From Solimonas variicoloris DSM 15731 (GTDB lineage: Bacteria > Pseudomonadota > Gammaproteobacteria > Nevskiales > Nevskiaceae), in contig NZ_KB907929.1 of assembly GCF_000382285.1 (NCBI RefSeq), positions 62,001 to 126,000 on the forward strand: 64,000 nt of DNA, given 5' to 3'. The notes beneath the pieces were generated by a model, which made no database searches, was not told the DNA's origin, and saw only the letters and a list, made by a program, of their open reading frames with translations. Below are positions 34,698-60,068 of the stretch, one piece after another. Made by a program: the position numbers and the translations under genes. Every line of letters begins with the position of its first letter. The stretch's first letter is position 1.

Positions 34698-34746
34698 CGG
34701 CGGCGATTCTAGCGCAGGAAGCGCCGCGACAACGGCGCGAACGCGC

Positions 34747-35964
34747 TTACGGTTCGCGCATCTCGCCGGCGGCGGCCTGCGGCAGCGTCGCGCGCGTCGG
34801 CGCGTGCGCCGGCAGCCAGCCGGCGAAGGCCGGCAGGCGCCGCGTCGCATGGTAGGCGAGGTAGCTGAGCAGCTGGCGGACCAGCGTGCGGCGGCGCGCC
34901 GTCGCCGGATCGATCTCGCGGCAGTGCGCCGCGAGCAGGTGTTCGAGGCTGTCGCGCAGCGCCGCGGCAGCGCCGTGGTCGCGCGCGAAGACATTGGCTT
35001 CGAGATTGAGGAAGAGGCTCAGCGGGTCGAGGTTGCTGGAGCCGACCGTCAGCCAGTCGCCGTCGATCAGCGCGACCTTGGCGTGCATCGGCCGCTCGCA
35101 GTATTCGTAGATGCGCACGCCGGCGTGCAGCAGGTAGTCATGCAGGGTGTTGGCGGCCCATTGCACGAAGCGCATGTCGGGATTGCCCTGCAGGATCACG
35201 CGCACACGCACGCCGCGTCGCGCGGCGTGGCGCAGATCGCGCAGCAGCCGGTAGCCCGGGAAGAAGTAGGCGTTGGCGATGACGATGTCGTGGCGCGCGG
35301 CGCGAATGCCGAGGCGATAGAGGCGCTCGATGTCGGCGCGATGCCGATCGTTGTCGCGGATCACCACGGCGGCGACCGCCGGCCCGTCCTGCGGCTGCTG
35401 CTGCGGCGACACCGGTGCCAGCCGCTGCCGGCGCAGCCAGCGCCAGCGTCGCGGCGGCGGCGCCAGCACCTCGAGCATCGTGCGGTGGATGTCGGCGACG
35501 ACCGGGCCCTCGATCTGCAGCGCGTAATCCTGCTTCGACTGCTCGCCGAAGTCGCGCAGGTGATCGTGCGACAGGTTGATGCCGCCGCAGAAGGCGAGCC
35601 GGCGGTCGATCACCGCGAGCTTGCGGTGCAGGCGGCGGAAGATGCGCGTGCGCTGGCCGAACAGACGCTGCACCGGATCGTAGACATGGATGTGCACGCC
35701 GGCCTCGAGCAGCGGCGCCGTGAACGTGGCGTCGAGGTCGGCCGAGCCGAAGCCGTCGATCGTGATCCGCACCGCCGCGCCGCGTCGCGCGGCGGCGATC
35801 GCCGCGTCGCGGAACTGCCGGCCGACCGGGTCGTCGAACAGGATGAACGTCTCGACCAGCACTTCCTCGCGGGCGGCGGCGATCGCCGCGAACAGACGCG
35901 GATAGTAGGCCTCGCCGTTTTCGAGCAGTTCGAGGCGATTGCCGTTGCGCCAGTGCGTGATCAC
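34747..35964 (-). CDS. clsB: cardiolipin synthase B
   Basis: A 405-residue phospholipase D-superfamily enzyme, close to the 413 residues of E. coli ClsB (YbhO). Both HKD motifs are present: HRKLAVIDRRLAFCGGIN and HAKVALIDGDWLTVGSSNLD. The start matches the family pattern (VITHWRNGNRLELLENGEAYYPRLFAAI). ClsB makes cardiolipin by transesterification of phospholipids at the inner membrane. The GTG start at 35964 overlaps the ybhP-like stop codon by four bases (GTGA), reproducing the ybhP-clsB pair of E. coli; a ybhN homologue is absent here. Confidence 0.92.
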   Translation of the reverse strand: MITHWRNGNRLELLENGEAYYPRLFAAIAAAREEVLVETFILFDDPVGRQFRDAAIAAARRGAAVRITIDGFGSADLDATFTAPLLEAGVHIHVYDPVQRLFGQRTRIFRRLHRKLAVIDRRLAFCGGINLSHDHLRDFGEQSKQDYALQIEGPVVADIHRTMLEVLAPPPRRWRWLRRQRLAPVSPQQQPQDGPAVAAVVIRDNDRHRADIERLYRLGIRAARHDIVIANAYFFPGYRLLRDLRHAARRGVRVRVILQGNPDMRFVQWAANTLHDYLLHAGVRIYEYCERPMHAKVALIDGDWLTVGSSNLDPLSLFLNLEANVFARDHGAAAALRDSLEHLLAAHCREIDPATARRRTLVRQLLSYLAYHATRRLPAFAGWLPAHAPTRATLPQAAAGEMREP

Positions 35965-36725
35965 AGGCGCGCCTCGGCGGTCAGCGCGGCATGGTCCGAG
36001 AGTCGCGACCAGGGTGGCGCCGACAGCACCTGCGGGCGCTCGACGCAAGCGTTGCGGAAATAGATGCGGTCGAGCCTGAGCAGCGGCCAGCGCACCGGAA
36101 ACGAACGCGCCGGGCGGCCGCGGCGCAGGGCGAAGGCTTCGCGCAGGCCGCAGTCCTGAAGGCGGCGGTCGGCATGCAGGCCCCAGTCGTTGAAGTCGCC
36201 GGCGACGAACAGCGGGGCGGCCGCCGGTACCTCGGCGGCGATGAGCGTACAGAGCCGCGACAGCTGGACGCGCCGGTGGCTTTCGCGCAGGCCCAGATGG
36301 ACGCAGATCACGTGCACGTCGAGCGGATGGTTCGGCAGGCGCAGCACGCAGTGCAGCAGCCCGCGCTGCTCGTGGCGGCCGACCGAGACGTCATGGTTGT
36401 CGAAACGCACGATCGGAAACTTGGAGAGCACGGCGTTGCCGTGGTGACCCTCGGTATAGACCGCGTTGCGGCCGTAGGCGAAGTCGCGCCAGATGGTGTC
36501 GGCGAGAAACTCGTATTGCGGCGCCGCCGGCCAGGTCGCATGCCGCACGGCATGCGCGCTGTGCATGCCCAGCACTTCCTGCAGGAAGACGATGTCCGCC
36601 GAAACGCCACGCACCGCCTCGCGCAGCTCGTGCAGCACGAAGCGGCGATTGAACGAGCTGAAGCCCTTGTGCGTGTTGAGCGTCAGCAGCTTGAAGGCGA
36701 CGCTGGTGTCGGTGGCGTGGTCCAT
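35961..36725 (-). CDS. ybhP: YbhP-like endonuclease/exonuclease/phosphatase family protein
   Basis: A 254-residue EEP-fold metal-dependent hydrolase, almost the length of E. coli YbhP. Motifs are LTLNTHKGF (metal Asn), VFLQEVLG (Glu), ICVHLGL, FVAGDFNDW, LDRIYF and SDHAALTAE with the terminal catalytic Asp-His. The family contains DNases, sphingomyelinases and phosphatases; YbhP itself has no established substrate. Linkage to a cardiolipin synthase suggests a lipid-related role, which remains inference. The ATG at 36725 gives an N-terminus in register with YbhP. Confidence 0.88.
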   Translation of the reverse strand: MDHATDTSVAFKLLTLNTHKGFSSFNRRFVLHELREAVRGVSADIVFLQEVLGMHSAHAVRHATWPAAPQYEFLADTIWRDFAYGRNAVYTEGHHGNAVLSKFPIVRFDNHDVSVGRHEQRGLLHCVLRLPNHPLDVHVICVHLGLRESHRRVQLSRLCTLIAAEVPAAAPLFVAGDFNDWGLHADRRLQDCGLREAFALRRGRPARSFPVRWPLLRLDRIYFRNACVERPQVLSAPPWSRLSDHAALTAEARL

Positions 36726-36823
36726 CGCGGGCGTCCGGCGATCCGGCTTCCAAGGCTCGCCACCGCGGCTGAACCGCGGCTGACGGCCGAGGCTGCGTCC
36801 GACGCCGCTCGCGCCGCGCATGC

Positions 36824-37300
36824 TCAGTAGCCCGGCGGACGCCGTCGTTCCAGCCAGGCGATGGCGTCGTCGGCATCGCCTTCGAACCAGGCCTGCGCCG
36901 AGCCGAGGATGAAGTGATAGCCCCAGGCGTCCATGTCGGCGAAGCACTGCGCGCGCGTGTAACCGGCCAGGCGCGCGGCGAGCAGGCATTCGAGATAGCA
37001 GACCGCGTGCTCCTCGACGTCCTCGCCGCCGGCGTTGGTGTGCATCGTCGCGCGTCGCGCCTCGTCGGCGCACAGCCAGTGGCAGGCCTCGTGCAGCGCC
37101 GAGTGCACGGGCGTGTCGCTGCGCACGTAGAGCGTCGCCCCGATCAGGCCGGCCTCGGTCTCGCCCCAGTAGCTGCCGGGGATCTCGACGCCGTCGTCGA
37201 CGACCGCGACGCGCATGCCGAGCGGTTCGAGCAGCGCGCGCAGCGCCGCGTCGCCGATTTCGCGGCAGCGGGTCACGGTCGGTTCGGCTTCGGCGGGCAT
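36824..37300 (-). CDS. conserved protein with an HExxH-like metal motif
   Basis: A 158-residue protein of unknown function. Its centre has HSALHEACHWLCADE, an HExxH zinc-binding motif, followed about 25 residues later by EDVEEHAV, which could supply the third ligand, as in minimal metallopeptidases such as ImmA/IrrE or the SprT type. There is no signal peptide or membrane segment. It lies between the ybhP-like gene and the AraC regulator with 90-100 base gaps on both sides, so it may be a single-gene unit. Catalytic activity is not established. Confidence 0.65.
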   Translation of the reverse strand: MPAEAEPTVTRCREIGDAALRALLEPLGMRVAVVDDGVEIPGSYWGETEAGLIGATLYVRSDTPVHSALHEACHWLCADEARRATMHTNAGGEDVEEHAVCYLECLLAARLAGYTRAQCFADMDAWGYHFILGSAQAWFEGDADDAIAWLERRRPPGY

Positions 37301-37389
37301 CGTGATTCGTCTCGGCGGCGCCGGCAGCTACCGGCGCGGCAGGCCGCGATTGTCCGCGCTGCGCGCGGCCGGCGTCCAGGTCGCGGCCG

Positions 37390-38433
37390 TCATGGCGACG
37401 GTTCGCGCCGGTCGCGATCGCGCAGCCGGTAGGTCGACGGGCTGCAGCCGGCGCGCTGGCGGAAGGCGCGCGTGAAGTTGGCGATGTCGCTGAAGCCCAG
37501 CGAGTAGGCGACTTCGGTGACGCTCAGGGTGCCGGCGGCGAGACGCTCGCAGGCGAGCTCGTGCTGGATGCGGCCGGCGATCTCGCGAAAGCTGCTGCCT
37601 TCGCGCTGCAGATAGCGGTTGAGCGTGCGCATCGACAGATTCAGCGTGCGCGCCATTTCCTGCAGCGAGGGGCCGCCGTCGCCGACTTCGCGCAGCGTCA
37701 TCGCCACCCAGTCGGAGAAGCGGCGCTCGCGCGCCGCGTGCTGCACCAGCGCGTTGCAGCGCTCCTCGGCGACCTTGAGCGAGTTGGCGTCGGCCATGTG
37801 CATCGGGAAGCGCTCGAAGTCCTGCGCGTAGCTGACGCGGACGCCCGGCTGGCGCTGGACGCCGAAGCGGTACTGCAGATGTTCGAGCTCGGCGTAGCGC
37901 TTCACGTGTGGCGGCTCGGGGATCGAGAAGTACAGCTTCGCCGGCAGCGACGGATCGCCGGTCATGTCCTTCATGTCGCGCAGCGCCGCCATCGCGATCG
38001 CTTCGAGGTGAAAGGCCAGGCACATGTGCGACATGCCGACGACGGGCTCGAACAACAGCTCGGTGCTGCCGCCGTCGAGCCGCAGCCGCATGCGGAACGT
38101 CGGCATGACGAGGCGGAAGTAGCGCGTGATGAACTGCAGCGCGCCCAGCACGGTCGGGCTGCTGAGCATGCCGAAGCCGACGATGCTGTGCGTGCTCAGC
38201 GTCAGCAGCCGTCCCATCTCGAAGCCGAGATCGGTGCGCGGGCTGCGCAGGTGGAGCTGCTGCACGAGCCGTTCGACGCGCGAGAAGCGGATCGTGGCGT
38301 CGGCCGCCTTCAGTGCCGACAGCGGCGTCCCGGGCTGGATCAGCAGGTCGGCGATGTCGACGTGGTCGCGCGCCAGCACTTCGGCGAGCCGCAGGTAATA
38401 CCGCGCCGGCACGAGGTAGTCGATCTTCGCCAT
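37390..38433 (-). CDS. AraC family transcriptional regulator
   Basis: A 347-residue regulator: residues about 20-200 match the arabinose-binding-like sensor domain (LITRYFRLVMPTFRM region), and about 240-335 form a two-HTH AraC domain (MARTLNLSMRTLNRYLQREG, then TEVAYSLGFSDIANFTRAFRQRAGCSPSTYR). This subclass is frequent beside genes for hydrophobic compound use, including CypR-type regulators of CYP153 genes. It is divergent from the RND pump gene, with a 199-base shared regulatory region that contains an inverted repeat. A diverged second copy of its first 116 codons exists at 47.8-48.1 kb. Confidence 0.9.
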   Translation of the reverse strand: MAKIDYLVPARYYLRLAEVLARDHVDIADLLIQPGTPLSALKAADATIRFSRVERLVQQLHLRSPRTDLGFEMGRLLTLSTHSIVGFGMLSSPTVLGALQFITRYFRLVMPTFRMRLRLDGGSTELLFEPVVGMSHMCLAFHLEAIAMAALRDMKDMTGDPSLPAKLYFSIPEPPHVKRYAELEHLQYRFGVQRQPGVRVSYAQDFERFPMHMADANSLKVAEERCNALVQHAARERRFSDWVAMTLREVGDGGPSLQEMARTLNLSMRTLNRYLQREGSSFREIAGRIQHELACERLAAGTLSVTEVAYSLGFSDIANFTRAFRQRAGCSPSTYRLRDRDRREPSP

Positions 38434-38949
38434 GGCTGTCGGGTTTTTGCGTGTTGTCGCATTATGACAAACAAGTGGCGTGAAATGATAAGACCGCGAT
38501 CGCTGCGCAAGGCAGCATCAAGCCCGTTAGCCGATCGCTCGATCGATCGGCGCCGCCGGTGACCCGAAGAACCGGCGCAAGACAACGACAACGCGCGTCT
38601 CAGCGCGGCGGTGATTGGAGAGGAGCAGCAGGGTGCATGATTCGAGAAGCGCGTTCGCGCAGGCTTTCGTGCGCGTCACGGAGCCGCTGATATTCAGCCG
38701 CCGTTACCTGACGCTGAGCGTGCTCGGCCTGATCACGCTGCTGCTCGCCTGGCAGGCGGCGCATCTGCGGCTCGACACCGGCTTCGAAAAAAAGCACCCG
38801 CTCGGCCATCCCTATATCCAGGTCTACAAGCAGTACGAAAAGGAATTCGGCGGCGCCAACGTGACGCTGGTCGCCGTGCGCCAGAAGTCCGGCGACATCT
38901 ACAACGCCGCGTTCATGCGCACGTTGCGCGCCGCGACCGACGCCGTCTA
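38087..38949. repeat. segment duplicated at 47780-48667
   Basis: The stretch from inside the AraC gene through the intergenic region to codon 106 of the RND gene reappears, in the same orientation, at 47780-48667. The copies share long identical runs but differ by many single bases, and the second has a 25-base expansion around the RND start codon. The edges are sharp: similarity stops at cgcatgcgg on the left and ccgtcta on the right. Confidence 0.93.
38454..38470. promoter_or_regulatory. inverted repeat, candidate operator of the AraC/RND divergent pair
   Basis: ttgtc-N7-gacaa lies 21-37 bases upstream of the AraC start codon, in the most AT-rich part of the intergenic region. It is unchanged in the diverged copy at 48147-48163. 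AraC proteins usually bind direct repeats, so the binding protein is uncertain. Confidence 0.4.
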
Positions 38950-41248
38950 TTTCACGCCGGGCATGGACCGCGCGCGCGTCAGCTCGCTGTTCACGCCGGA
39001 CGTGCGCTATCTGGAAGTCGTCGAAGGCGGCTTCGCCGGCGGCAACGTCGTGCCGGCCGATTTCCAGCCGACGCCGGAGATGCTGGCGCGCGTGCGCGCC
39101 AACGTCGAGAAGGCCGGCATCATCGGCCGCCTGGTCGCCAACGACCAGAGCGCGGCGATGATCTTCTCGGAGTTGCTCGAACGCGATCCGGTGAGCGGCG
39201 CCAAGCTCGATTACCTGAAGACCGCGCAGCTGCTGGAGACCATCCGCGAGCGCTTCACGCAGCCGCGCCTCTACCGCTACCGGCTCAAGCACGAACTCGG
39301 CGCGCTGAAGGCCGGCACCGTGGTCGGCAGCGCCTATCACGCGCCGCGCGCCTGGTCGTTTCCGCTGCAGCGCATCGACACCGATCCGGCGCTCGCCGCC
39401 GACGGCGCCGCGCCGCCGGTCGTGCGCGGCTACCAGGTCGAGATCGAGGCCGTCGACAACCCGGACTACAACCCGGACGTCGACATTCACATCATCGGCT
39501 TCAGCAAGGCGGTCGGCGACATCGCCGACAGCGCGATCGAAGTGTTCAGCTTCTTCGGCCTGACCGTGTTCCTGGTCTGGCTGCTGCTGTGGCGCTACTG
39601 CGGTTCGCCGAAGGTCGCGCTGCTGCCGCTGGCCTGCGGCATTCTCGCGGTGATCTGGGAGCTCGGCCTGCTGCATCTGGTCGGCCTCGCGCTCGATCCG
39701 TTCGCGGTGCTGATGCCGTTCATCGTGCTGGCGATCAGCACCTCGCACGGCATCCAGATCACCAGCTTCTGGCTCAACGAGATCGCCGACAACGGCCTGT
39801 CCTCGTTCGACGCCGCGCAGGCCACCTATCGGCGCCTCGTCATTCCGGGCCTGTCGGCGCTGGCGACCAACTTCGTCGGCTTCGGCACCATCCTGCTGAT
39901 CCCGATCGACATCATCCGCGAGATGGCGATCAACGCCATGCTCGGCCTGCTGGCGATCGTGCTGTGCAAGAAGATGCTGCTGCCGTGCCTGCTGAGCTTC
40001 GCCTCGCTGAAGGACCCGGTCGCCTTCCGCGCCCACCAGCAGCGCCGCGACCGCCACCTCGCGCCGGTCTGGCACGCGCTGTCCGGCATCACGCGCAAGC
40101 CGGTCGCCGCGGTGGTGCTGCTGTCGGCCGCGCTGCTGTGGGGCTGGGGCGCGTGGGTCTCGCAGGACCTGAAGATCGGCGAGCTGCATGACGGCGTGCC
40201 GGAGCTGCGCCCCGACTCGCGCTACAACCGCGACTCGGCGCAGATCGTCCACGACTTCTCGATCGGCGTCGACGTGCTGAAGATCGTCGCCGAGGGCAAG
40301 GCCGACGGCTGTATCGACCACTCGATCGTCTCGCTCGTCGACCGTTTCGCGTGGCGCATGGAGAACACCGCCGGCGTGCAGTCGACGCTGTCACTGCCGA
40401 AACTGCAGCAGAAGGTCTACAACAGCTACAACGAGAGCAATCCGAAGTTCGACACGCTGCCGCGCGAGAGCGGCGCGCTGGTCATCACCGTGCAGCCGTT
40501 TCCGAGCTCGACCGGCCTGCTCAACGAGGACTGCAGCGCGCTGCCGGTGCTGGTCTTCACCAAGGACCACAAGGCCGAGACGATCGACGCGATCGTCGCC
40601 GAAGTGCAGCGCTTCATCGCCGAGCAGCCCAAAGACGCGCCGGTGAAGCTGCGCCTGGCGACCGGCAACGTCGGCGTCATGGCCGCCGCCAACGACGTCA
40701 TCAAGGACACCGAGTACCGCGTGCTGCTGTGGCTGTTCGTCGGCATCGGCGTCTGCGTGCTGGCCTCGTTCCGCAGCTTCGCCGGCCTGGTCTGCGTGCT
40801 GGTGCCGCTGGCGCTCGTGCACATCGTCTCGTACGCGGTGATGGTCTACCTGCAGATCGGCGTGAAGATCTCCAACCTCGCGGTCGCCGCGTTCGCCGCC
40901 GGCATCGGCGTCGACTACGGCATCTACATCTACAGCGTGCTCGAGGAGAACGTGCTCAACAAGGGCATGACGCTGCGGCGCGCCTACGAGAACACCCTGC
41001 ACCAGACCGGCAAGGCGGTGGTGTTCACGGCGCTGACGCTGGCGGCGACGGTCTGCACCTGGATGTTCTCGGACCTGCAGTTCCAGGTCGACATGGGCAT
41101 CCTGCTGACGATGATGTTCGTCGCCAACGCGGTGGCCGCCGTGGTCCTGCTGCCGGCCTTCGCCGCCTTCCTGCTCAAGCCCAAACCCGCCGCGGTCGCC
41201 GAGACCGCTGCGGTCGCCGCCGCGCCCGTCGCCGGCCCGACGATTTGA
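38633..41248 (+). CDS. RND/MMPL family transporter
   Basis: An 871-residue inner membrane protein with the RND layout: a first membrane helix (about 30-48), a large periplasmic loop, a block of five helices with the SSD-like LMPFIVLAISTSHGIQIT segment, then the same again (second loop, helices with FAAGIGVDYGIYIYSVLEEN). It is of the smaller MMPL/HpnN type rather than an AcrB-type efflux pump. The GTG at 38633 follows GAGGAG by eight bases; the diverged copy has ATG at that place. It is the first gene of a four-gene unit with DUF1329, DUF1302 and a YCF48-like protein. Residues KKHPLGHPY differ from KQLPLGHPY in the copy. Confidence 0.88.
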   Translation: MHDSRSAFAQAFVRVTEPLIFSRRYLTLSVLGLITLLLAWQAAHLRLDTGFEKKHPLGHPYIQVYKQYEKEFGGANVTLVAVRQKSGDIYNAAFMRTLRAATDAVYFTPGMDRARVSSLFTPDVRYLEVVEGGFAGGNVVPADFQPTPEMLARVRANVEKAGIIGRLVANDQSAAMIFSELLERDPVSGAKLDYLKTAQLLETIRERFTQPRLYRYRLKHELGALKAGTVVGSAYHAPRAWSFPLQRIDTDPALAADGAAPPVVRGYQVEIEAVDNPDYNPDVDIHIIGFSKAVGDIADSAIEVFSFFGLTVFLVWLLLWRYCGSPKVALLPLACGILAVIWELGLLHLVGLALDPFAVLMPFIVLAISTSHGIQITSFWLNEIADNGLSSFDAAQATYRRLVIPGLSALATNFVGFGTILLIPIDIIREMAINAMLGLLAIVLCKKMLLPCLLSFASLKDPVAFRAHQQRRDRHLAPVWHALSGITRKPVAAVVLLSAALLWGWGAWVSQDLKIGELHDGVPELRPDSRYNRDSAQIVHDFSIGVDVLKIVAEGKADGCIDHSIVSLVDRFAWRMENTAGVQSTLSLPKLQQKVYNSYNESNPKFDTLPRESGALVITVQPFPSSTGLLNEDCSALPVLVFTKDHKAETIDAIVAEVQRFIAEQPKDAPVKLRLATGNVGVMAAANDVIKDTEYRVLLWLFVGIGVCVLASFRSFAGLVCVLVPLALVHIVSYAVMVYLQIGVKISNLAVAAFAAGIGVDYGIYIYSVLEENVLNKGMTLRRAYENTLHQTGKAVVFTALTLAATVCTWMFSDLQFQVDMGILLTMMFVANAVAAVVLLPAFAAFLLKPKPAAVAETAAVAAAPVAGPTI

Positions 41249-41287
41249 CCGGCATCGCGCAAGCGAGCCCATGACATGGAGAGAGAA

Positions 41288-42643
41288 ATGAGGAAAAAAC
41301 TGATGGCGGCGATGGTGGCGATGGTGTTCGCGCCACTGCCGCTGTGGGCGAAGGTGTCCGCCGACGAGGCCGCGCGCCTCGGCAAGGATCTGACGCCGGT
41401 CGGCGCCGAGCGCGCCGGCAACAAGGACGGCACGATTCCCGAGTGGACGCCGGCCAAGCAGTCCGGCGCCCTCAAGGGCGAGTATCCGAGCGACGCGCAG
41501 CTCGAAGCCGAGCAGCCGCTGTTCACGATCGACGCCAAGAACATGGCGCAGTACGAAGGCAAGCTCACCGAAGGCCACAAGGAGCTGCTCAAGCGCTTTC
41601 CGGCCACCTACAAGATGAACGTCTACAAGACGCATCGCAAGGTGAACTTTCCGGACAAGATCCTCGCCGAGACGCAGAAGAACGCGACGCGCGCGGTGCT
41701 CGAAGGCGTCGACAACGTCAGCGGCGCCTACGTCGGCTTTCCGTTCCCGATCCCGAAGTCCGGCGCCGAGCCGATCTGGAACCATCGCGTGAAGTGGCGC
41801 GGCGACGCCGTGCGCCGCTACAACAACCAGATGATCGTGCAGCAGAGCGGCACGTTCACGCTGACCAAGATCGTCGAGGACGCCAAGTTCTACTACGCGA
41901 ACCTGTCCGATCCGAACCCGCCCGAACTCAAGCCGGGCGTCGACTTCCTGCGCTACCTCTCGGAGACGATCTCGCCGCCGCGCATCGCCGGCACCTTCAT
42001 CCTGGTGCACGAGAAGGCCGGCTTCGGCACCGAAGGCCGCGCCGCGTGGCTGTACGCGCCGATCCTCAAGCGCATCCGCCGCGCGCCGGCGGTCTGTTGC
42101 GACAACCCCTACGAGGGCACCGACGGCCATCAGTTCTACGACCAGGTCGACATGTACAACGGCGTGCTCGAGCGCTTCACCTGGAAGCTGCTCGGCAAGC
42201 GCGAGGTCTACATTCCGTATGACGCGTTCCGCATCGCCGGCAGCAAGACCCGCTACGCCGACATGGCGCGTCCGAACCATCTGAACCAGGACCTGCCGCG
42301 CTACGAGCTGCACCGCGTCTGGGTGGTCGAGGCCGACAACAAGCCGGACATGCGCCACACCTTCAAGAAGCGCCGCTTCTACATCGACGAGGACAGCTGG
42401 AACATCGTGGCGATCGACAACTACGACCAGCAGGACAAGCTGATGCAGTTCCAGGAGGGCCACCTGGTGCCGTACTACAACATTCTCGGCGCGACCACGC
42501 AGCCGGAGGTGATCTATCACCTCAACTCGGGCCGCTACTTCGTCACCGCGATGATCAACGAGGACCAGCCGTACGACACCACGGTCCGCTTCAACGACAG
42601 CGCGTTCGACGCCGACACCGTGCAGAAGCGTACGTCCAAGTAG
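41288..42643 (+). CDS. DUF1329 outer-membrane-associated lipoprotein-like protein
   Basis: A 451-residue exported protein with a signal peptide (MRKKLMAAMVAMVF to LWA). The rest is DUF1329: SADEAARLGKDLTPVGAERAGN near the N-terminus, then GFPFPIPKSGAEPIWNH, and late RRFYIDEDSWNIVAIDNYD. The fold is related to LolB/LolA-like lipid carriers in structure predictions I recall, but no activity is proven. It is almost always beside a DUF1302 gene, as here. A GGAGAGA site favours the ATG at 41288 over the ATG at 41276. The gap to the RND gene is about 40 bases. Confidence 0.9.
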   Translation: MRKKLMAAMVAMVFAPLPLWAKVSADEAARLGKDLTPVGAERAGNKDGTIPEWTPAKQSGALKGEYPSDAQLEAEQPLFTIDAKNMAQYEGKLTEGHKELLKRFPATYKMNVYKTHRKVNFPDKILAETQKNATRAVLEGVDNVSGAYVGFPFPIPKSGAEPIWNHRVKWRGDAVRRYNNQMIVQQSGTFTLTKIVEDAKFYYANLSDPNPPELKPGVDFLRYLSETISPPRIAGTFILVHEKAGFGTEGRAAWLYAPILKRIRRAPAVCCDNPYEGTDGHQFYDQVDMYNGVLERFTWKLLGKREVYIPYDAFRIAGSKTRYADMARPNHLNQDLPRYELHRVWVVEADNKPDMRHTFKKRRFYIDEDSWNIVAIDNYDQQDKLMQFQEGHLVPYYNILGATTQPEVIYHLNSGRYFVTAMINEDQPYDTTVRFNDSAFDADTVQKRTSK

Positions 42644-42661
42644 GTCGGTTCATACCGGGAG

Positions 42662-42687
42662 GGCCGGCGGCGCGTGCGCCGCCGGCC
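42662..42687 (+). other. perfect 12-bp hairpin between DUF1329 and DUF1302 genes
   Basis: ggccggcggcgc (42662-42673) pairs fully with gcgccgccggcc (42676-42687) around a two-base GT spacer. No T run follows, so it is not a classical terminator; it could protect an mRNA 3' end or tune the ratio of the flanking cistrons. The remaining gap to the ATG at 42751 ends in a GGGGGAG ribosome site. Confidence 0.6.
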
Positions 42688-42750
42688 TGAAGGCGGGGGC
42701 CCTCGGCAGGGTGCCCCGGGCTTTGTCAGCCTTTTGCGGGGGAGAAAAAC

Positions 42751-45246
42751 ATGAAAGCCATTACGGCGACGGCTGCCGCGGCGGCCGGCTTCATCCTGCT
42801 CGGCGCGACGCCGGCGCAGGCCGTCGAATTCGACTTCAGCGTCGGCGACACCGATTTCACCGCCGTGCTCAACAACACGGTGACGATGGGCGCGTCGTGG
42901 CGCGTCGAGGACCAGGCGCGCTATCTGGTCGGCAAGTCCAGCCTCGATCCGGACGTCTGCGGCGGCTATTACCAGTCCTGCCAGGGCGTGCATCGCGATC
43001 AGGTCTATCCGGCGCAGCGCCTGTTCTCGGCGCCGGGCATGGCGTCGATGAACTTCGACGACGGCAACCTCAACTACAACAAGGGTGACGTCACGCAGGC
43101 GCCGCTCAAGCTGTCGCAGGACCTCAACATCAAGTTCGGCGATTTCGGCGTGTTCGTGCGCGGCATGGGCATCTACGACTTCGTCAACTACAACCATTTC
43201 AAGGAGCGGCACTACAACCGCATCACGGCGGACAACTACACGTCGGTCGGCAGCACCGGCGACGTCGCCGCCAACCGCTACTTCGCGCGCACCTACGGTC
43301 CGGGCGCGCGCATGCGCAGCGAGCGCTCGGAGCGCGAGGCCAAGCAGATCGGCCTGCGCTACGACCTGCTCGACGCCAATTTCTACGGCACGCTGCCGTA
43401 CCTCGACGGCGAGCGCGAGCTGATCTTCCGCGTCGGCCGGCAGACCGTGAACTGGGGCCAGAGCACGGTCGCCGTGATCAACAGCGTCAACCAGGCGCAG
43501 CCGGTCAACGCCAACAGCCTTTACCGTCTCGGCTTCGGTCTGCTCGAAGAGCTGTTCGTGCCGGTCGGCATGGTGCGCGCGGCGACCGACGTCGCCGACG
43601 GCGTCAGCGTCGAGGGCTACTACCAGTACGAGTGGGAGCCGATCGAGATCCCGACGCCCGGCAGCTACATGTCGTTCGTCGACCTCGGCAATGACAATCT
43701 GCGCGGTTCGATCAACGCCGCGTTCGGCGGCTCCGCGGACGATCCGGATCATCGCGGCACCCTGCTCAACAACCCCCTCGGGCTGATCACGCCGACGACG
43801 CTGACGATCGACCGCCTGCGCGACAAGAAGGCCAGCGACCAGGGGCAGTGGGGCGTCGCGCTGAAGTACTACGCCGAGTGGCTCAACGACGGTACCGAGC
43901 TGAGCCTGTACGCGATGAACTACCACTCGAAGCTGCCGTACGTCAGCTTCTACTCGACCGACGCCAGCTGCGCGCGCCGCGAGGGCAACCGCCTCGGCAT
44001 CGACGCGACCAACACGCTGGAGTTCCTGCAGGCCTGTCCGAACCTGCCGGTGTCGCAGCCTTCGGCGTCGACGCAGATCCTCGGCGACCTCACGCGGCTG
44101 ACGCTGGCGCGGCCGGGCATCCTGCCCGAACTCGGCCTGCTGTCGGGCGGCGGCAGCACGGTCGGCGGCCTCGTCAATCTGCTGCTGCCGCGCCCCGGCC
44201 TGCCGGAGAGCGACGCCGTGCCGCTCGACACCGCGAAGTTCCGGCTCGAATACCCCGAGAACCTGAAGATGTATGGCTTCAGCTTCACGACCACGGCCGG
44301 CGATCTGTCGTTCCAGGGCGAAGTCTCGTATCGGCCGAACGTGCCGCTGCAGGTCGCGCTGGTCGATCTCGCGTTCGCGTCGTTCGGACCGACGCTGACG
44401 CGCTGCCACGAGCAGTCGCTCGGCTGCGCCGGCGCCTCGGCCGGCGTCGGCTACGATGCCAACGGCAATTACATCGTCTACGACCAGAACAACTTCGTCG
44501 ACGCCGCCGGCAACAATCCGTATCCGGACGCGGTCAACCTGATCGTCGGCGCGGCGCCCGGCTCGGCGCGCTCGTTCCCGAACTTCATCATTCCGTACCG
44601 CGGCGGCATGGTCGGCGAAAACGCGCCGAATAGCTACATCCGCGGCTGGATCCCGGGAAAGGTCGCGCAGTACAACCTCGGCGCCACGCAGGTGCTCGGC
44701 GCGTCCGACAACTGGATCGGTGCCGATCAGGTGATCCTGCTCTACGAACTGGCGGCGACGCACGTGCTGAACATGCCGAAGTTCGATCGCCTGCAGATCG
44801 AAGGGCCGATGACGGCGACCACGCACGCCAGCGCCGGCGCCGACGGTAGCGGCGCCGACGGTTCGCGACTGGCCTGCTCGACGAATCCGGCCTGCTCGTA
44901 CGGACCGGACGGCCTGCGCTTCAATCCGTTCCAGGCGCGGCGCAGCGCCTTCGCCGATCCGTTCTCGTGGGGCTATCGCGTGGTCGGCCGCATCAGTTAC
45001 GAATCGGTGCTGCCCGGCATCAGCGTGCAGCCGCTGTTCATCTGGCAGCAGGACATCCAGGGCAACTCACCGGGCCCCGCCGGCAACTTCGTCGAAGGCC
45101 GCAAGTCGCTGAACCTGCTGCTCGAGACGCGCTACGAGAAGTCCTACTCGTTCACGATCGCCTACAACATGTTCTTCGGCGGCGGGCACAACAATCTCTA
45201 CGCCGATCGCGACAACCTCGGCTTCTTCGCCAAGTACCAGTTCTAA
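42751..45246 (+). CDS. DUF1302 outer membrane porin-like protein
   Basis: An 831-residue exported protein with a short signal peptide (MKAITATAAAAAGFILLGAT to AQA). The mature start VEFDFSVGDTDFTAVLNNTVTMGASWRVED and the regular alternation of aromatic and polar residues, ending LGFFAKYQF with a terminal Phe, indicate an outer membrane beta-barrel. Its length is greater than usual for general porins and typical of DUF1302. Members accompany DUF1329 and RND genes in clusters for hydrophobic substrates; a transport role in the outer membrane is inferred. Insertions rich in Cys pairs (VCGGYYQSC and RCHEQSLGC) suggest disulfide-tied loops. Confidence 0.9.
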   Translation: MKAITATAAAAAGFILLGATPAQAVEFDFSVGDTDFTAVLNNTVTMGASWRVEDQARYLVGKSSLDPDVCGGYYQSCQGVHRDQVYPAQRLFSAPGMASMNFDDGNLNYNKGDVTQAPLKLSQDLNIKFGDFGVFVRGMGIYDFVNYNHFKERHYNRITADNYTSVGSTGDVAANRYFARTYGPGARMRSERSEREAKQIGLRYDLLDANFYGTLPYLDGERELIFRVGRQTVNWGQSTVAVINSVNQAQPVNANSLYRLGFGLLEELFVPVGMVRAATDVADGVSVEGYYQYEWEPIEIPTPGSYMSFVDLGNDNLRGSINAAFGGSADDPDHRGTLLNNPLGLITPTTLTIDRLRDKKASDQGQWGVALKYYAEWLNDGTELSLYAMNYHSKLPYVSFYSTDASCARREGNRLGIDATNTLEFLQACPNLPVSQPSASTQILGDLTRLTLARPGILPELGLLSGGGSTVGGLVNLLLPRPGLPESDAVPLDTAKFRLEYPENLKMYGFSFTTTAGDLSFQGEVSYRPNVPLQVALVDLAFASFGPTLTRCHEQSLGCAGASAGVGYDANGNYIVYDQNNFVDAAGNNPYPDAVNLIVGAAPGSARSFPNFIIPYRGGMVGENAPNSYIRGWIPGKVAQYNLGATQVLGASDNWIGADQVILLYELAATHVLNMPKFDRLQIEGPMTATTHASAGADGSGADGSRLACSTNPACSYGPDGLRFNPFQARRSAFADPFSWGYRVVGRISYESVLPGISVQPLFIWQQDIQGNSPGPAGNFVEGRKSLNLLLETRYEKSYSFTIAYNMFFGGGHNNLYADRDNLGFFAKYQF

Positions 45247-45258
45247 GGGAGAACCGCC

Positions 45259-46218
45259 ATGCGATTCGTCTTCGGCCTGAGCGCCGCGCTGCTCGCGCTG
45301 GGCGCCACCGCGTCACCGCCGGCGCCGGTGCCGTCCGAAATGGCGCCGCGCGCCGCGCACAGCTCGCTCACCGGCATCGCCGTCGCCGGCGAGCAGCTGA
45401 TCGCGGTCGGCGCGCGCGGCCACATCCTGCGTTCCGGCGATGGCGACCGCTGGGAACAGGTGGCAGCGCCGGTCGACGTGCTGCTGACCGCGGTGCGCTT
45501 CGTCGATGCGCGCAACGGCTGGGCCGTCGGCCACGACGCCACCATCCTGCACAGCGACGACGGCGGGCGCAGCTGGCGACTGCAGCACTTCGAGCCGGGC
45601 CCGAACGTGCCGCTGCTCGACGTGCTGTTCCTCGATGCGCGCCACGGCTTCGCGGTCGGCGCGTACGGCCTGATGCTGGAGACGCGCGACGGCGGCGCGA
45701 GCTGGGAGCGGCGCGAGTCGGCGCTGACCGAGGAAGGGCTGCACTTCAACGCGCTGGCGCGCCTCGGCGACGGCTCGCTGCTGCTGGCCGGCGAGGCCGG
45801 CATGCTGGCGCGTTCCGCCGACGACGGCGCCAGCTGGCAGCGTCTGCAGTCGCCGTACGAGAGTTCGCTGTTCGGCGCCTTGCCGAGCGGCGCCCGCGGC
45901 GCGGTCGTCGCCGGACTGCGCGGCAACGTGTTCCGCACCGACGACGTCGCCGCCGGCACGTGGACGCGTGTGGCGACCGATTCGCAGCAATCGGTGTTCG
46001 GCCTGTCGGCCCTGGCGGACGGCAGCGTCGCGCTGGCCGGCTTCAGCGGCTTCCTGCGCGTGCTCGGCCCGGACGGGCGCGTCGCGCCGCCACGCCCCGA
46101 CGGCGTGTCGCCCGAGGCGGCGCGCGACAGCGAAAGCAGCACGTTCAGCGGCGTGGTCGCCTGGCGCGATGAGCTGATCACGGTCGGCAGCAGCGGCGTG
46201 CAGCGCTGGCGCCGCTAG
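45259..46218 (+). CDS. YCF48-like beta-propeller protein, exported
   Basis: A 319-residue protein with a signal peptide (MRFVFGLSAALLALGATA). It contains at least four propeller blades with the BNR/YCF48 signatures SDDGGRSW, RDGGASW and SADDGASW, and repeated VGHDATI, VGAYGLM and AGEAGML strands. Such proteins accompany RND/DUF1302/DUF1329 genes and are thought to act as assembly or stability factors, by analogy with the photosystem II protein. It begins 12 bases after DUF1302. The stop codon TAG (46216-46218) overlaps the first two bases of an IS inverted repeat, so the native C-terminus may have been altered. Confidence 0.82.
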   Translation: MRFVFGLSAALLALGATASPPAPVPSEMAPRAAHSSLTGIAVAGEQLIAVGARGHILRSGDGDRWEQVAAPVDVLLTAVRFVDARNGWAVGHDATILHSDDGGRSWRLQHFEPGPNVPLLDVLFLDARHGFAVGAYGLMLETRDGGASWERRESALTEEGLHFNALARLGDGSLLLAGEAGMLARSADDGASWQRLQSPYESSLFGALPSGARGAVVAGLRGNVFRTDDVAAGTWTRVATDSQQSVFGLSALADGSVALAGFSGFLRVLGPDGRVAPPRPDGVSPEAARDSESSTFSGVVAWRDELITVGSSGVQRWRR

Positions 46219-47745
46219 GAGCCTGGGCGGTAGAAAGCCATGGCGCTACGATTGGGTGATGCCGACGACCTGCCGCCCATACGACCCCGACCCGCTTCTG
46301 CTGCTACCCGCGTCACTCAAGGAGTGGCTGCCGGAGCAGCACCTGGCCTATTTCATCGCCGACACCGTGGCCGCGCTGGACCTCAAGGCGTTTCACGCAC
46401 GCTATGAAGGCGACGGTCGACGGCGGCAGCCGTTCGATCCGTCGATGATGGTCTAAGGTGCTGGTGTATGCCTATGCCAGCGGCGTGTTCTCGTCGCGCA
46501 AGATCGCAGGTCGTCTGGAAGAGGACGTGGCGTTTCGCGTCCTGGGCGCGGGGAATTTCCCGGCGCACCGGACGCTGCGCGAGTTTTGCCAGCTGCACCT
46601 GGCCGAGTTCTCGGCGTTGTTCGTGCAGATCGTGCAGCTGGCGCGGGAAGCCGGCCTGGTGAAACTGGGCCGGATCGGCATCGACGGCCCCAGGATCAAG
46701 GCCAACGCCAGCAAGCGCAAGGCGATGAGCGATGGCCGGATGCTGGAGCAGGAGCGGCGGCTCAAGGCCGAGATCGCGGATCTGATGAAGCAGGCCGAGG
46801 CGCAGGACACGCAGGAAGATGCGCAATTCGGTGCGGACCGGCGCGGCGACGAGCTGCCTGACGAGCTGGCGCGCCGCGAGCAGCGACTCAAAGTGATCCA
46901 GGCCGCCAAGGCGCGGCTCGAAGCCCGGCAGCACGAGCAGGACCAGAAAGACGGACGCAGCATGGACGACGACGGCCAGACGCGCGGTCCGGGTGGACGC
47001 CCCTGCAAGCGCGCCTTCGTGTGCCCGACGACAAGGCGCAGGACAACTTCACCGGTCCGCAGTCGCGGATCATGAAGACGGCCGATGGTTTTCAGCAGGG
47101 CTACAACGCCAGGCGGCGGTGGACGAAGACAGCCACCTGATGGTCGCGACGGGGTTGACGGACTGCGCGGCGGACAGCGGGCAACTGCTGCCGATGATCG
47201 AGGCGACGACGCGCAACACGGGCGCCGCACCGATGATGACGCTGGCCGACAGCGGCTATGCCAGCGAGGACAACTTCGCGACGCTGGAGGCGCGGCAACT
47301 CACGGCGTGCGTGGCGCTGGCGCGTGAAGGCAAGACGTTGCGCCCGGTTGACCCAGAGCACCACCCGGCGACGCAGCGCATGGCCGAGCGCCTGGCCACG
47401 CCCGAGGGCAAGGACCACGACCGGCGGGCAAATACATTCCCGAGCCGGTCTTCGGCTGGGTCAAACAGGCGCTGGGCTTTCGGCGATTCAGTGTCCGCGG
47501 CCGGGACGCAGTGACCGGAGAGTGGAATCTGGTATGTCTGGCGCTCAACCTGCGGCGGATGCAGCGGCTGGGATGGGTGCCGGCGTAACCGATCAAGGGG
47601 GCAACGCGCCACGCACCGCAGGCCGCCAATTCTCGACCCGCTTCGATGCGACTCGTCTGCGCCACGCGCCAGACCGATCGTCGCTTCGCGCGCACTGCCT
47701 CGCGCAAATCAAGCTCGGCTGAAATTTTCAGCCGCCCAGGCTCCT
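46217..47745 (+). mobile_element. IS1182-type insertion sequence, decayed
   Basis: The ends carry matching inverted repeats: aggagcctgggcggtagaaa at 46217-46236 and, as reverse complement, aggagcctgggcggctgaaa from 47726-47745 (two mismatches). Between them is one transposase gene broken into several frames. No target duplication is visible at the two edges (cgct on the left, ggcg on the right), which suggests that one flank was rearranged after insertion. Confidence 0.82.
46259..47588 (+). pseudogene. IS1182 family transposase, several frameshifts
   Basis: The product starts MPTTCRPYDPDPLLLLPASLKEWLPEQHLAYF, the DUF772-type N-terminus of IS1182 transposases. One extra base at about 46454 shifts PSMMV into KVLVYAYASGVFSSRKIA. 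The gene continues with GADRRGDELPDELARRE and breaks again at about 47022, at 47111 (ending YNA, resuming QAAVDEDSHLMV) and near 47431. The end, YIPEPVFGWVKQALGFRRF to LALNLRRMQRLGWVPA, is the normal DDE-domain terminus. Full coverage of the family with at least four frame changes means a complete but inactive gene; sequencing error could explain one or two shifts but hardly all. Confidence 0.85.
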
Positions 47746-48126
47746 GGCGCCAGCGCCAGCGCCAGCGCCGCGTCGCGGTCGCATGCGGAACGTCGGCATG
47801 ACGAGGCGGAAGTGGCGCGTGATGAACTGCAGCGCGCCCAGCACGGTCGGGCAGCTGAGCATGCCGAAGCCGACGATGCTGTGCGTGCTCGGCGTCAGCA
47901 GCCGTCCCATCTCGAAGCCGAGATCGGTGCGCGGGCTGCGCAGGTCGAGCTGCTGCACGAGCCGTTCGACGCGCGAGAAGCGGATCGTCGCGTCGGCCGC
48001 CTCCAGTGCCGCCGGCGGCGTCCCGGGCTGGATCAGCAGGTCGGCGATGTCGACGTGGTCGCGCGCCAGCATTTCGGCGAGCCGCAGGTAATACCGCACC
48101 GGCACGAGGTAGTCGATCTTCGCCAT
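47728..48126 (-). pseudogene. truncated second copy of the AraC regulator (N-terminal 116 residues)
   Basis: The first 116 residues match the AraC regulator at 37390-38433 with nine substitutions that I can count (A10V, V19M, L38P, S39A, K42E, H61D, L79P, S92C, Y105H). After MPTFRMR the frame runs through a GCCAGC-type hexamer repeat (residues RGAGAGAGA) and stops inside the right inverted repeat of the IS1182 element. The whole DNA-binding part is missing, so it cannot work as an activator, although a truncated sensor domain could in principle be made. Confidence 0.88.
47747..47772. repeat. short hexamer repeat (gcgcca)n
   Basis: About four tandem units of gcgcca/gcgccg lie directly between the IS right end and the start of the duplicated segment. 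The array is part of the junction and is absent from the original locus. Confidence 0.6.
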
Positions 48127-48667
48127 GGCTGTCGGGTCTTTCCGTGTTGTCGCATTATGACAAGCAAGTGGCGTGAAATGATAAGACCGCGATCGCTGCG
48201 CAAGGCAGCATCAAGCCCACTAGCCGATCGCCCGAACCATCGGCGCCGCCGGTCACCCGAAGAACCGGCGCAAGACAACGACAACGCGCGTCTCAGCGCG
48301 GCGGTGATTGGAGAGGAGCAGCAGCGATGCATGATTCGAGAAGCGCAGCGATGCATGATTCGAGAAGCGCGTTCGCGCAGGCTTTCGTGCGCCTCACGGA
48401 GCCGCTGATATTCAGCCGCCGTTACCTGACGCTGAGCGTGCTCGGCCTGATCACGCTGCTGCTCGCCTGGCAGGCGGCGCATCTGCGGCTCGACACCGGC
48501 TTCGAGAAGCAGCTGCCGCTCGGCCATCCCTATATCCAGGTCTACAAGCAGTACGAAAAGGAATTCGGCGGCGCCAACGTGACGCTGGTCGCCATGCGCC
48601 AGAAGTCCGGCGACATCTACAACGCCGCGTTCATGCGCACGTTGCGCGCCGCGACCGACGCCGTCTA
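47780..48667. repeat. diverged second copy of the 38087-38949 segment
   Basis: Direct repeat of the AraC/RND divergent region, 888 bases against 863 in the first copy. The 25 extra bases are a near-perfect tandem duplication around the RND start codon, so that atgcatgattcgagaagcgc occurs twice. The intergenic inverted repeat and the ribosome site are conserved. Confidence 0.93.
48147..48163. promoter_or_regulatory. second copy of the candidate operator inverted repeat
   Basis: ttgtc-N7-gacaa is identical to 38454-38470, while nearby bases differ (tttttgc versus tctttcc just before it). Confidence 0.38.
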
Positions 48668-48689
48668 CTTATCGAGACCTTCGCGATGA
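48327..48689 (+). pseudogene. truncated second copy of the RND transporter (N-terminal part)
   Basis: A 120-residue frame beginning MHDSRSAAMHDSRSAFAQAF, where the first eight residues are repeated because of the tandem duplication at the start codon. It follows the RND protein up to TLRAATDAVY and then diverges into a short unrelated tail, LSRPSR, at the junction. It keeps the first membrane helix and the KQLPLGHPY segment. It starts with ATG, unlike the GTG of the intact gene. It is not a functional pump. Confidence 0.88.
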
Positions 48690-49750
48690 GCGGCCTGTAC
48701 GCGGCGTTGTTGACCTGGGCGACGCTGGCCGGATACCTGTGGCCGGCGCTGCGCCTGGTGCTGCTGCCGCAGCGGCTCGCCGTGTTCGTGCTGGCCTGGT
48801 CGTTCGACTGGCTGCCGCATCACGGCCTGCGCGACACCGCGCGCAGCAACCGCTATCAGGCGACGCGCAACCGCATCGGCCGCGAACGGCTGCTGAACCC
48901 GCTGATGCTGTGGCAGAACTACCACCTCGTCCATCATCTGCATCCGTCGATTCCGTTCTTCACGTACCGCCGCGTGTGGCTGCGCAACGAAGCGCACTAC
49001 CTGGCGCAGGAGCCGCCGCTGGCGACCGCGTTCGGGCGCACGTTGACGGCGGCGGCGTATCGCCGCGCACGCGGCCTGCCGCCGCCGGCGGTCGCCGGCA
49101 GCGGGCGGCGCCTGGAGTTCCACGCGCTGCGCGTGGCGGACCTGCAGCGCCTCACCGACGACAGCGTCGCGATCCGCTTCGCGGTGCCGGACGCGCTGCG
49201 CGAGACCTTCCGCTTCGACGCCGGGCAGCACCTGACGCTGCGCGCAGTCATCGACGGCATGAGCTGCCGGCGCAGCCACTCGATCTGTTCGCCGGCGCCG
49301 GACGGGGCGCTCGCGTCGCCGTGCGCCGGGTGCCGGACGGCGTCTTCTCCGGCTATGCGCTCGAGCGCCTGCGCGTCGGCGACCGCCTCGACGTGATGCC
49401 GCCGAGCGGGCAGTTCCGCACCGCGCTCGGCGCCAGCCGCGCGCGCACGCACGTCGCGATCGCCGCCGGCAGCGGCATCACGCCGATCCTGCCGCTGGCG
49501 ATGACGACGCTGGCCGCGGAGCCGCGCAGCCGCTTCGTGCTGATCTATGGCAACCGCAGCGCGGCCAGCACGATGTTCCGCGACGAGCTGCGCGAGCTGC
49601 AGCAGCAGTATCCGCAGCGTTTCGAACTGCTGCATTGCCTGTCGCGGCCGGCGGCCGGTGACAGCGCCGGACTGCTCGGCGGCGAGATCCATGGCGGGCG
49701 CATCGAACCGGCCGCGCTCGCGGCGCTACTCGGCGCGCGCGTCGCACACG
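48668..49750 (+). pseudogene. fatty acid desaturase-ferredoxin reductase fusion remnant, truncated at both ends and frameshifted
   Basis: From the repeat junction an open frame (ATG at 48686) gives the end of a membrane desaturase: WLPHHGLRDTARSNRYQATRNR and the third histidine box WQNYHLVHHLHPS. It continues without a stop into a ferredoxin-NADP reductase-type FAD domain (FRFDAGQHLTLRAV, RRSHSICSPAPDG). At about 49305 one base is missing and the protein continues in another frame as RVAVRRVPDGVFSGYALERL, SGQFRT and IAAGSGITPILPL (NAD-binding). At about 49745 the sequence changes into an IS3 transposase. The N-terminal desaturase half and the C-terminal reductase end with its [2Fe-2S] domain are lost. 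Confidence 0.8.
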
Positions 49751-50426
49751 GCCCAGGCGAGGTCTGGTGTTGGGACGTGACCTGGTTGCCGACCCCGGTC
49801 GTCGGTCGCTGGTTCTGCCTGTACCTGATCCTCGACATCTACAGTCGCAAGATCGTCGGTCATGAGGTTCATGAGGTCGAGGCCGCCGAGCACGCCGCGC
49901 ATCTGGTCAAGCGCACCGCCCTGGCCGAAGGCGTGCACGTCAGGGAAGACGGTCCGGTCCTGCATGGCGACAACGGCGGCATTCTCAAGGCCACGACCGT
50001 GCTGGCGATGCTGCACTGGCACTGGCTCGGGATCGCGCCGTCGTACTCGCGTCCGCGCGTGTCCGGCGACAACGCCTTTGTCGAATCGCTGTTCCGTACC
50101 GCCAAGTACCGGCCCGGCTACCCGGCCAACGGCTTCAAGACGCTGGACGATGCTCGGCAGTGGGCCGAGCGCTTCGTGCACTGGTACAACCACGACCGCC
50201 GCCACAGCGGCATTCGCTACGTTGCGCCAGCGCAGCGCCACACCGGCCATGACCACGCGCGATCCTGGCCGAGCGGCACGCGCTGTATCAGGCGGCTCGC
50301 CAGCGCCATCCCCGGCGCTGGACGACAAGCACGCGGAACTGGACGCCGATCGGTGCCGTCACGCTCAATCCCGAGCGCGATGCTGTCGTGCCGATCATGC
50401 TCGCCGATATTCAGGTCGCAGCGTGA
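49745..50426 (+). pseudogene. IS3 family transposase (integrase catalytic region), truncated and frameshifted
   Basis: The frame reads GPGEVWCWDVTWLPTPVVGRWFCLYLILDIYSRKIVG, then LHGDNGG, then SYSRPRVSGDNAFVESLFRTAKYRPGYP and HWYNHDRRHSGIRYV. These are the DDE signatures of the rve domain of IS3-type transposases, with the D in WDVT, the second D in HGDN and the E in FVESL. At about 50262 (after HTGHDHA) the frame shifts; the proper end AILAERHALYQAARQRHP to ADIQVAA with stop at 50424-50426 is in another frame. In one open frame it is fused to the reductase remnant, which is an accident of the junction. Confidence 0.82.
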
Positions 50427-50460
50427 AATTTCAGGCAACAACTACCTTGACGCGTACCGC
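49745..50460 (+). mobile_element. 3' part of an IS3-type insertion sequence
   Basis: Only the C-terminal half of orfB and the right end remain; the left end and orfA are missing where the element meets the reductase remnant. The right boundary is placed before the ferredoxin leader, after caactaccttgacgcgtacc, and is approximate because no partner inverted repeat is present. Confidence 0.65.
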
Positions 50461-50507
50461 TGTCACGCCAGCATCAAGTGAATCAATCGATTTTCGAGGA
50501 GAAAGCA

Positions 50508-50828
50508 ATGGGCAGCATTACCTTTGTCGAACACGATGGCACCGAACACACGGTGGAAATAGAACCGGGCAAGTCCTTGATGCAAACCGCCAAGGACAAT
50601 GGTGTACCGGGCATCGACGGAGACTGCGGCGGTGAATGTGCCTGCGGCACCTGCCATGTGATCATCGCAGGCGATTGGATCAAGGCCACCGGGGTCGCCA
50701 GCGATGGGGAATTGCAGTTGCTGGATATGACCCCGGAGCGTGCCGATACGTCACGGCTGGCCTGCCAGATCAGCACCACTGAAGCGATGAATGGCATGGT
50801 CGTGCGTCTGCCTGAATTTCAGATGTAG
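50508..50828 (+). CDS. [2Fe-2S] ferredoxin, partner of CYP153A
   Basis: A 106-residue adrenodoxin/putidaredoxin-type ferredoxin. Cluster ligands are C40, C46 and C49 (DCGGECACGTCHV) and C86 (LACQ). Such ferredoxins pass electrons from an NADH-dependent reductase to bacterial P450 enzymes. The ATG at 50508 follows a GAGGAG site by about seven bases; a GTG at 50478 would add ten residues. It lies 55 bases before the P450 gene and is of similarly low GC content, so the two form one transferred cassette. Confidence 0.93.
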   Translation: MGSITFVEHDGTEHTVEIEPGKSLMQTAKDNGVPGIDGDCGGECACGTCHVIIAGDWIKATGVASDGELQLLDMTPERADTSRLACQISTTEAMNGMVVRLPEFQM

Positions 50829-50883
50829 CCATCCTGGCTACCCCTCCCTCACAGCAGTACGTACCAATCTTTGGAGAAGCACT

Positions 50884-52293: not shown

Positions 52294-52294
52294 T

Positions 52295-53021
52295 GGCTCT
52301 TCGTCAGAAGCCTGAGGTAGAGAAGGGATAGCCGCCTGCGGCAAGCCCTTGTAGAGCGAAGGTTCTGAGGCTTTCGATGACGAGGACCAATGGGAGCGGC
52401 TGTCCCAGCCCAGATTCTTGGGCTACGCGGGCAAGTGGTCAATGCGGTGACGGTGGGTGGCGAGGGCGTGATTCGGGTGAGCTGTCGTCGGGATGCGCGA
52501 CGGCGTCCGATCGACCCGCGCACGGGACAACGAGGTCGAGCCCATCGCTGGCGACGGCGCACGGTGTGGGACGTGCCGATGGCCGGGCATCGGGTGGCGC
52601 TGGACATCGAGTACCTGGAGATTGCCGTCGGCGCGCGCGACCGGCGGGTCGAGCACCTCGACTTCGTAGCACCTGGCCAAGGCGGGCTCGCCGGGGCCCA
52701 AGCGCATCGGCATCGACGAGATCTCGATCAAGAAGCGCCACACCTACCGCATCGTGGTCAGCGATCTCGATCGGGGCCGGCCGATCGGGTTCGGCGGCGA
52801 GGATCGCTCCGAGGCCAGCATGGCGCAGTTCTACGCCTGGCTGGGCGAGAAGAAGAGCCGCCAGATCCGGCTGGCGCTGATGGACATGTGGAAGCCGTTT
52901 CGCAAGGCCACGCAGGCCCACGCGCCGCAGGCGGCGATTCTGTTCGACAAGTTCCACGTCATGCGCCATCTGGGCGAGGCACTCGACCAGGTGCGCAAGG
53001 CCGAGTACGCGCGGCTGGAAG
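52295..53021 (+). mobile_element. ISL3-type insertion sequence remnant
   Basis: The sequence from ggctcttcgtcagaagcctg at 52295 looks like the left terminal repeat of ISL3 elements, many of which begin GGCTCTTC. The right end is missing where the transposase runs into the MFS gene. The left boundary is therefore plausible but not confirmed by a partner repeat. Confidence 0.6.
52390..53021 (+). pseudogene. ISL3 family transposase, internally deleted and truncated
   Basis: The N-terminal portion (MGAAVPAQILGLRGQVVNAV, then RWRRRTVWDVPMAGHRVALDIEY) resembles the start of ISL3 transposases but the zinc-finger and linker regions are shortened. After about 52700 the frame changes and the catalytic part appears: KRIGIDEISIKKRHTYRIVV, EDRSEASMAQFYAWLG, IRLALMDMWKPFRKA and ILFDKFHVMRHLGEALDQVRK. 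The protein breaks off after AEYARLE, at the junction with the MFS transporter. About half the usual length is missing. Confidence 0.82.
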
Positions 53022-55380: not shown

Positions 55381-55482
55381 ACGATGCCCGCCGCCGGCGC
55401 GCGACGCGCGGCGGCCTGCTAACGTGTTGGGCCTCGTTCCGGCTGCGAGCGGGCAGCCGGCCTTGGCCATCATCGGGCAGAC

Positions 55483-60061: not shown

Positions 60062-60068
60062 GTCCGCC

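Follow-up and report, generated by a model that had tools for sequence, protein, structure and literature searches.

A truncated second copy of an AraC/RND gene-start region in Solimonas variicoloris is probably a relic of a partial duplication and is shared with Solimonas flava

The window analysed here, a 64,000-nucleotide stretch of the Solimonas variicoloris DSM 15731 genome, contains the starts of an AraC-type regulator gene and an RND transporter gene twice, once within an operon (copy 1) and once as an isolated fragment (copy 2). We consider it probable, from sequence comparisons, that copy 2 is a decaying relic left by a partial duplication within one Solimonas lineage, and that it lies in a block of genes that was later exchanged. 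Both copies are found in two species and all four fall into a single clade, both copies in the window lack a gene that is present in relatives, and the copies differ by an excess of amino acid changes. In addition, they lie in a tract that is nearly identical in the two species, and a third species is free of the block.

The two copies, located at positions 38073-38952 and 47766-48670, form a direct repeat pair, the only long repeat detected when the window was compared with itself by BLAST. Each includes the 5' starts of the regulator gene (minus strand) and of the RND/MMPL transporter gene (plus strand), as well as the region between them. The self-comparison gave 93.6% identity over 905 columns with the gap counted, and a global alignment showed 33 substitutions and one 25-base gap, the identity across the 880 aligned bases being 96.2%. 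By our own reading of the alignment, 24 of the 25 extra bases form a tandem duplication around the start codon, the remaining one being a single additional base. The RND gene starts with GTG in copy 1 and with ATG in copy 2, and the protein reads KKHPLGHPY in the former and KQLPLGHPY in the latter, while 9 of the 115 compared AraC codons differ. These observations bear out the preliminary description of this DNA, which had reported direct repeats with both gene starts and many base differences, nine amino acid changes in AraC, a 25-base expansion and the differences in start codon and motif, and which had concluded that copy 2 is not a recent, near-identical tandem copy. The first 14 bases of the repeat hold 5 of the 33 substitutions, and the homology may have stopped before this point. 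When these five and the last difference are left out, 27 of 862 bases differ (about 3%), with 10 of 346 in the AraC portion, 9 of 199 in the intergenic portion, which is the most diverged, and 8 of 317 in the RND portion. No third full copy was found in the organism's own genome (4.12 Mb in 48 contigs), where two of nine matches were the copies themselves and the remaining seven were short and 69-86% identical.

Copy 1 is part of an intact operon with an AraC-family regulator of 347 amino acids (37390-38433, minus strand; Pfam Arabinose_bd and HTH_18), an RND/MMPL transporter with a GTG start (38633-41248; Pfam MMPL), a DUF1329 protein (41276-42643), a DUF1302 protein (42751-45246) and, as the last member, a YCF48-like protein (45259-46218), the latter four being open reading frames with Pfam assignments on the plus strand. 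Relative to this operon, copy 2 is truncated on both sides and extends to about codon 120 of AraC and about residue 113 of RND. It contains a truncated AraC open frame of 132 amino acids (47728-48126, minus strand), which matches positions 2-101 of the 185 positions of Pfam Arabinose_bd only, about half of the sensor domain, and is devoid of the DNA-binding domain. No Pfam match was found for the truncated RND open frame of 120 amino acids (48327-48689, plus strand).

Remains of insertion sequences are found on either side of copy 2. On the left is an element of the IS1182 family (46213-47749, plus strand) that has both inverted repeats and whose transposase frame is broken. It shows NCBIfam matches below the cut-off in two frames and has a relative in genome G034. 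Where this element ends on the right, a gap in the alignment raised the possibility of a deletion, but a single substitution accounts for the end equally well and a deletion is therefore not claimed. To the right, profile matches identify a truncated and frameshifted desaturase/PaaE-like reductase gene fragment (48671-49707, plus strand) leading into a transposase fragment of the IS3 type (49738-50238, plus strand). At five loci with relatives of the desaturase-reductase fragment (L053-L057, 3.1-3.5 kb), no AraC or RND sequences were found, the matches being to desaturase, reductase or rubredoxin parts only. Further to the right, profile matches identify genes for a ferredoxin-like protein and a CYP153-like P450 (50478-52293, plus strand), the latter being similar to CYP153 structures. 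In Fontimonas (L062), relatives of these two genes directly follow the YCF48 gene in reversed orientation. Positions 52754-54062 contain an ISL3 transposase fragment and then a GPH-type symporter, which matches its profile from position 115 on only and is therefore probably truncated at the N-terminus.

The preliminary description had favoured a foreign or old paralogous regulator-pump pair as the source of copy 2. This view is not supported by the phylogeny of the RND portion, which was based on 20 rows of 104 codons (16 of them different, with three identical pairs that probably represent the same genomes) and rooted at the midpoint for drawing only. In this tree, the four copies of the two species formed one clade with support values of 100/100, so that the nearest relative of copy 2 is the intact copy of its own lineage and not a sequence from another lineage. 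The closest other homologues were 81-82% identical among the matches listed. Indeed, in a survey of 61 genomes (the own genome and 60 relatives), matches above 82% identity were confined, among those listed, to the own genome and that of S. flava DSM 18980 (G007). Within the clade, the type 1 copies of both species grouped together (91/78) and the type 2 copies were identical. Since the two types group separately across the species, the duplication would precede the transfer.

A second line of evidence is provided by the loss of a gene. In seven relatives (L059, L061, L067, L062, G006, G010 and G001; L062 corresponds to L101 in G002) an AraC relative lies beside the genes in question, and in all seven it is followed by a desaturase-rubredoxin gene that is missing from both copies in the window (38434-38632 in copy 1). 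This gene was matched or present as an open frame in six of the seven, and in L061 its presence was deduced from spacing and end sequences. FA_desaturase and rubredoxin domains were detected in both of the proteins tested, and the product is presumably AlkB-like. The gene order downstream of the desaturase-rubredoxin gene is different in G010 and G001. Five further RND loci (L063, L064, L066, L068 and L069), for which no AraC match was found beside RND, are uninformative on the gene loss. The desaturase-rubredoxin protein has three matches elsewhere in the own genome, two of them free of internal stops; one match, on contig C1, adjoins another AraC relative.

The start codon and the motif of copy 2 had also been read as signs of foreign DNA. 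ATG is the start codon in all four outgroups compared, which makes the GTG of copy 1 the derived state, and KKH occurs only in copy 1 of the window, all remaining rows that cover the site having Q. ATG and KQLP are thus old rather than foreign, and it is the intact copy that has changed, a clear instance of apparent signs of foreign DNA that proved to be ancestral. Altogether, the tree, the common gene loss and the polarity of these changes speak against a foreign origin of copy 2. For AraC, comparison with 8 outgroup rows (7 distinct) showed that copy 2 is derived at residues 10, 19, 79, 92 and 105, of which 10, 92 and 105 are constant across all 8 rows. Copy 1 is derived at residues 39 and 42, and the polarity is ambiguous at residues 38 and 61. 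At RND residue 14, copy 1 is derived in most comparisons, although the outgroup L068 shares its V. The decay is therefore not one-sided, as copy 1 has changed at AraC residues 39 and 42, at RND residue 14, at the start codon and at KKH, which speaks against a relic that alone has drifted. These changes in copy 1 suggest that selection on the operon may be weak.

The pattern of substitutions nonetheless fits decay better than it fits orthologues of related species, and in a foreign pair mostly synonymous differences would be expected. In AraC, 9 of the 10 coding differences between the copies are nonsynonymous, and for both genes together the ratio is 13.5 nonsynonymous to 3.5 synonymous, close to the neutral proportion of 74% nonsynonymous (p-value of 0.59) and thus without a sign of purifying selection on the protein, although these tests are based on 10 to 17 differences. 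By comparison, 16 left-flank genes, selected by codon-position G+C, show 302 nonsynonymous and 474 synonymous differences between the window and S. flava, with a synonymous difference of 8.8%. The ratio of the copies differs from that of these flank genes (Fisher p-values of 0.0005-0.002, and 0.0003 without a cluster of five base changes described below) and from the between-species AraC difference of 7:12 (p-value of 0.008).

These numbers also bear on the possibility that a sister strain or species supplied copy 2 as an allele of the same gene pair, which recombined in beside the resident copy and was later truncated. The copies are about 3% apart, which is less than the synonymous difference between the species, the region has demonstrably been exchanged between species, and the ancestral states lie in copy 2 for RND and mostly in copy 1 for AraC, as mixed alleles might show. 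However, normally selected alleles should differ mostly synonymously, as the flank genes do and the copies do not, and no donor was found among the matches listed in the 61 genomes or in the 13 loci compared. An imported allele of a weakly selected operon could show the same substitution pattern as a relic, and we regard such an import as unlikely but worth keeping in mind.

According to the account that we favour, a partial duplication within one lineage, the desaturase-rubredoxin gene would already have been lost from the regulator-pump operon in a Solimonas lineage before a second copy of the divergent AraC/RND start region arose there. One duplicate would then have been cut on both sides and stranded between the IS1182-family element and the fragment of another oxidation gene, where it would have drifted with no sign of protein-level selection. 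Afterwards, the block with the intact operon and the relic would have been exchanged between species. We infer the order of these events, the mechanism of the duplication and the lack of function of the relic; no sequence feature revealing how the duplication arose was found.

The exchange is reflected in a tract at 37570-58439 that is nearly identical to S. flava, ten differences being counted across the aligned portions. Five of these are clustered at 38788-38797 and two lie elsewhere, and the remaining three are no more than 24 bases away from the end of an S. flava contig. To the left of the tract the window and S. flava are 93-96% identical, and to the right 46 differences were counted in 58440-61403 and 16 in 61503-61929. 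At 34700-37570 the divergence rises to about 20%; this patch, which ends inside the 3' end of AraC and adjoins the near-identical tract, probably represents a second, more distant exchange. In genome G003, the left flank stops at window position 37257 and the right flank resumes at 55502, with 849 bases in between, and the window thus has about 18 kb extra relative to G003. Positions 37257-55502 constitute a variable chromosomal site, with about 18 kb in the window and S. flava and 849 bases in G003, while in G001 the site is occupied by about 6.9 kb of different DNA. Judged from these alignments, the block, which contains probable alkane-oxidation genes, was recently exchanged between the species of the window and S. 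flava, and the shared scar marks this exchange between two Solimonas species. The earlier view of a mosaic setting thus holds, as copy 2 lies among gene fragments and insertion-sequence remains in a block that has moved between species. A plasmid origin of the block was dismissed, as the five matching plasmid records each cover 1-7% of the block at 73-76% identity and none matches above 80% of it. The same applies to a tRNA-targeted island or an integrative element at a tRNA gene, as the 64-kb window contains 0 tRNA genes.

S. flava also provides an independent view of copy 2. One of its contigs reaches 38928 in copy 1, another covers 38877-48259 and a third covers positions from 48330 onward, which leaves a gap at 48260-48329. 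Copy 2 is thus seen with its two outer junctions in this separate assembly as well. Breaks of the S. flava contigs within the repeat might have mixed the copies at the contig ends, but the presence of both junctions and the 33 positions at which the copies differ leave an assembly artefact with a negligible probability. This agrees with the earlier opinion that copy 2 is not such an artefact. Nor are the copies confined to one strain, with differences resembling assembly errors, as had been envisaged as grounds for abandoning the earlier reading, because both exist in two species. The five base changes within the ten bases at 38788-38797, which turn KQL into KKH, occur in copy 1 of the window only. 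At these sites, copy 1 of S. flava has the ancestral bases of copy 2, with copy-1 bases on both sides, and three copy-1 bases are found at the end of its copy 2. A search of the rest of the own genome, allowing up to 3 mismatches, revealed no template for the five changes. Possible causes of the cluster and the three end bases are gene conversion, a change in the lineage of the window, or mixing at draft contig ends.

Upstream of AraC we noted a half-site like GTCGCATTATGACA, followed by an imperfect repeat. Two such half-sites 21 bases apart form a candidate AraC operator at 38456-38490 in copy 1 and at 48149-48183 in copy 2, and the exact half-site GTCGCATTATGACA occurs in the window in the two copies only. 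When spacings of 17-25 bases were compared, 21 scored highest in each of the 9 rows, the half-sites matching each other at 8-12 of 16 positions (L059, L061 and L067 are one sequence). Since the candidate operator is kept in both copies, titration of the regulator by copy 2 is possible but unsupported. That copy 2 has been retained for an activity, with the spare operator titrating AraC or the truncated AraC interfering, appears very improbable to us: the spaced repeat is kept and both truncated frames remain open, but divergence within the repeat is greatest in the intergenic portion, the substitution pattern is close to neutral and the AraC fragment has only about half of a sensor domain. It is also improbable that the relic still takes part in other ways, its candidate operator or truncated sensor tuning AraC, or its sequence being exchanged with the intact pump gene, for which the mixture of copy-1 and copy-2 bases in S. 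flava could represent gene conversion between relic and intact copy. Copy 2 most likely has no present role, since its AraC frame is without a DNA-binding domain and its RND frame covers a small part of the pump.

In the parts of the literature on Solimonas alkB/CYP153, CypR and DUF1329/DUF1302 that were available, no description of a duplication of an AraC/RND start was found, and one may be in print. CypR, an AraC-type regulator of alkane oxidation genes, is named there (PMC11784139). The AraC of the window resembles it in family and in its likely setting next to oxidation genes, but matches the CypR profile NF053784 (NCBIfam) only weakly, scoring 115 bits where the cut-off is 500. A gene table for Pseudomonas aeruginosa lists RND, DUF1302 and DUF1329 genes as adjacent (PMC7145413). 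Closer to the window are the AraC/desaturase-rubredoxin/RND/DUF1329/DUF1302/YCF48 clusters of other Solimonas and Fontimonas (L059, L061, L067 and L062), which have the same genes and gene order from RND on, the same divergent AraC gene and the same spaced repeat. The window differs from them in that the desaturase-rubredoxin gene has been lost from this position and an extra truncated copy is present. A partial gene duplicate that decays beside insertion sequences is a pseudogene, and copy 2 resembles such pseudogenes in its truncation at both ends, its near-neutral substitution pattern and the insertion-sequence remains on either side. Its functional significance is likely to be little, and an ordinary scar of genome evolution, not a separate foreign system, is the most likely explanation. 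Unlike an ordinary pseudogene relic, it is present in the same form in two species, because the block that holds it was exchanged between them.
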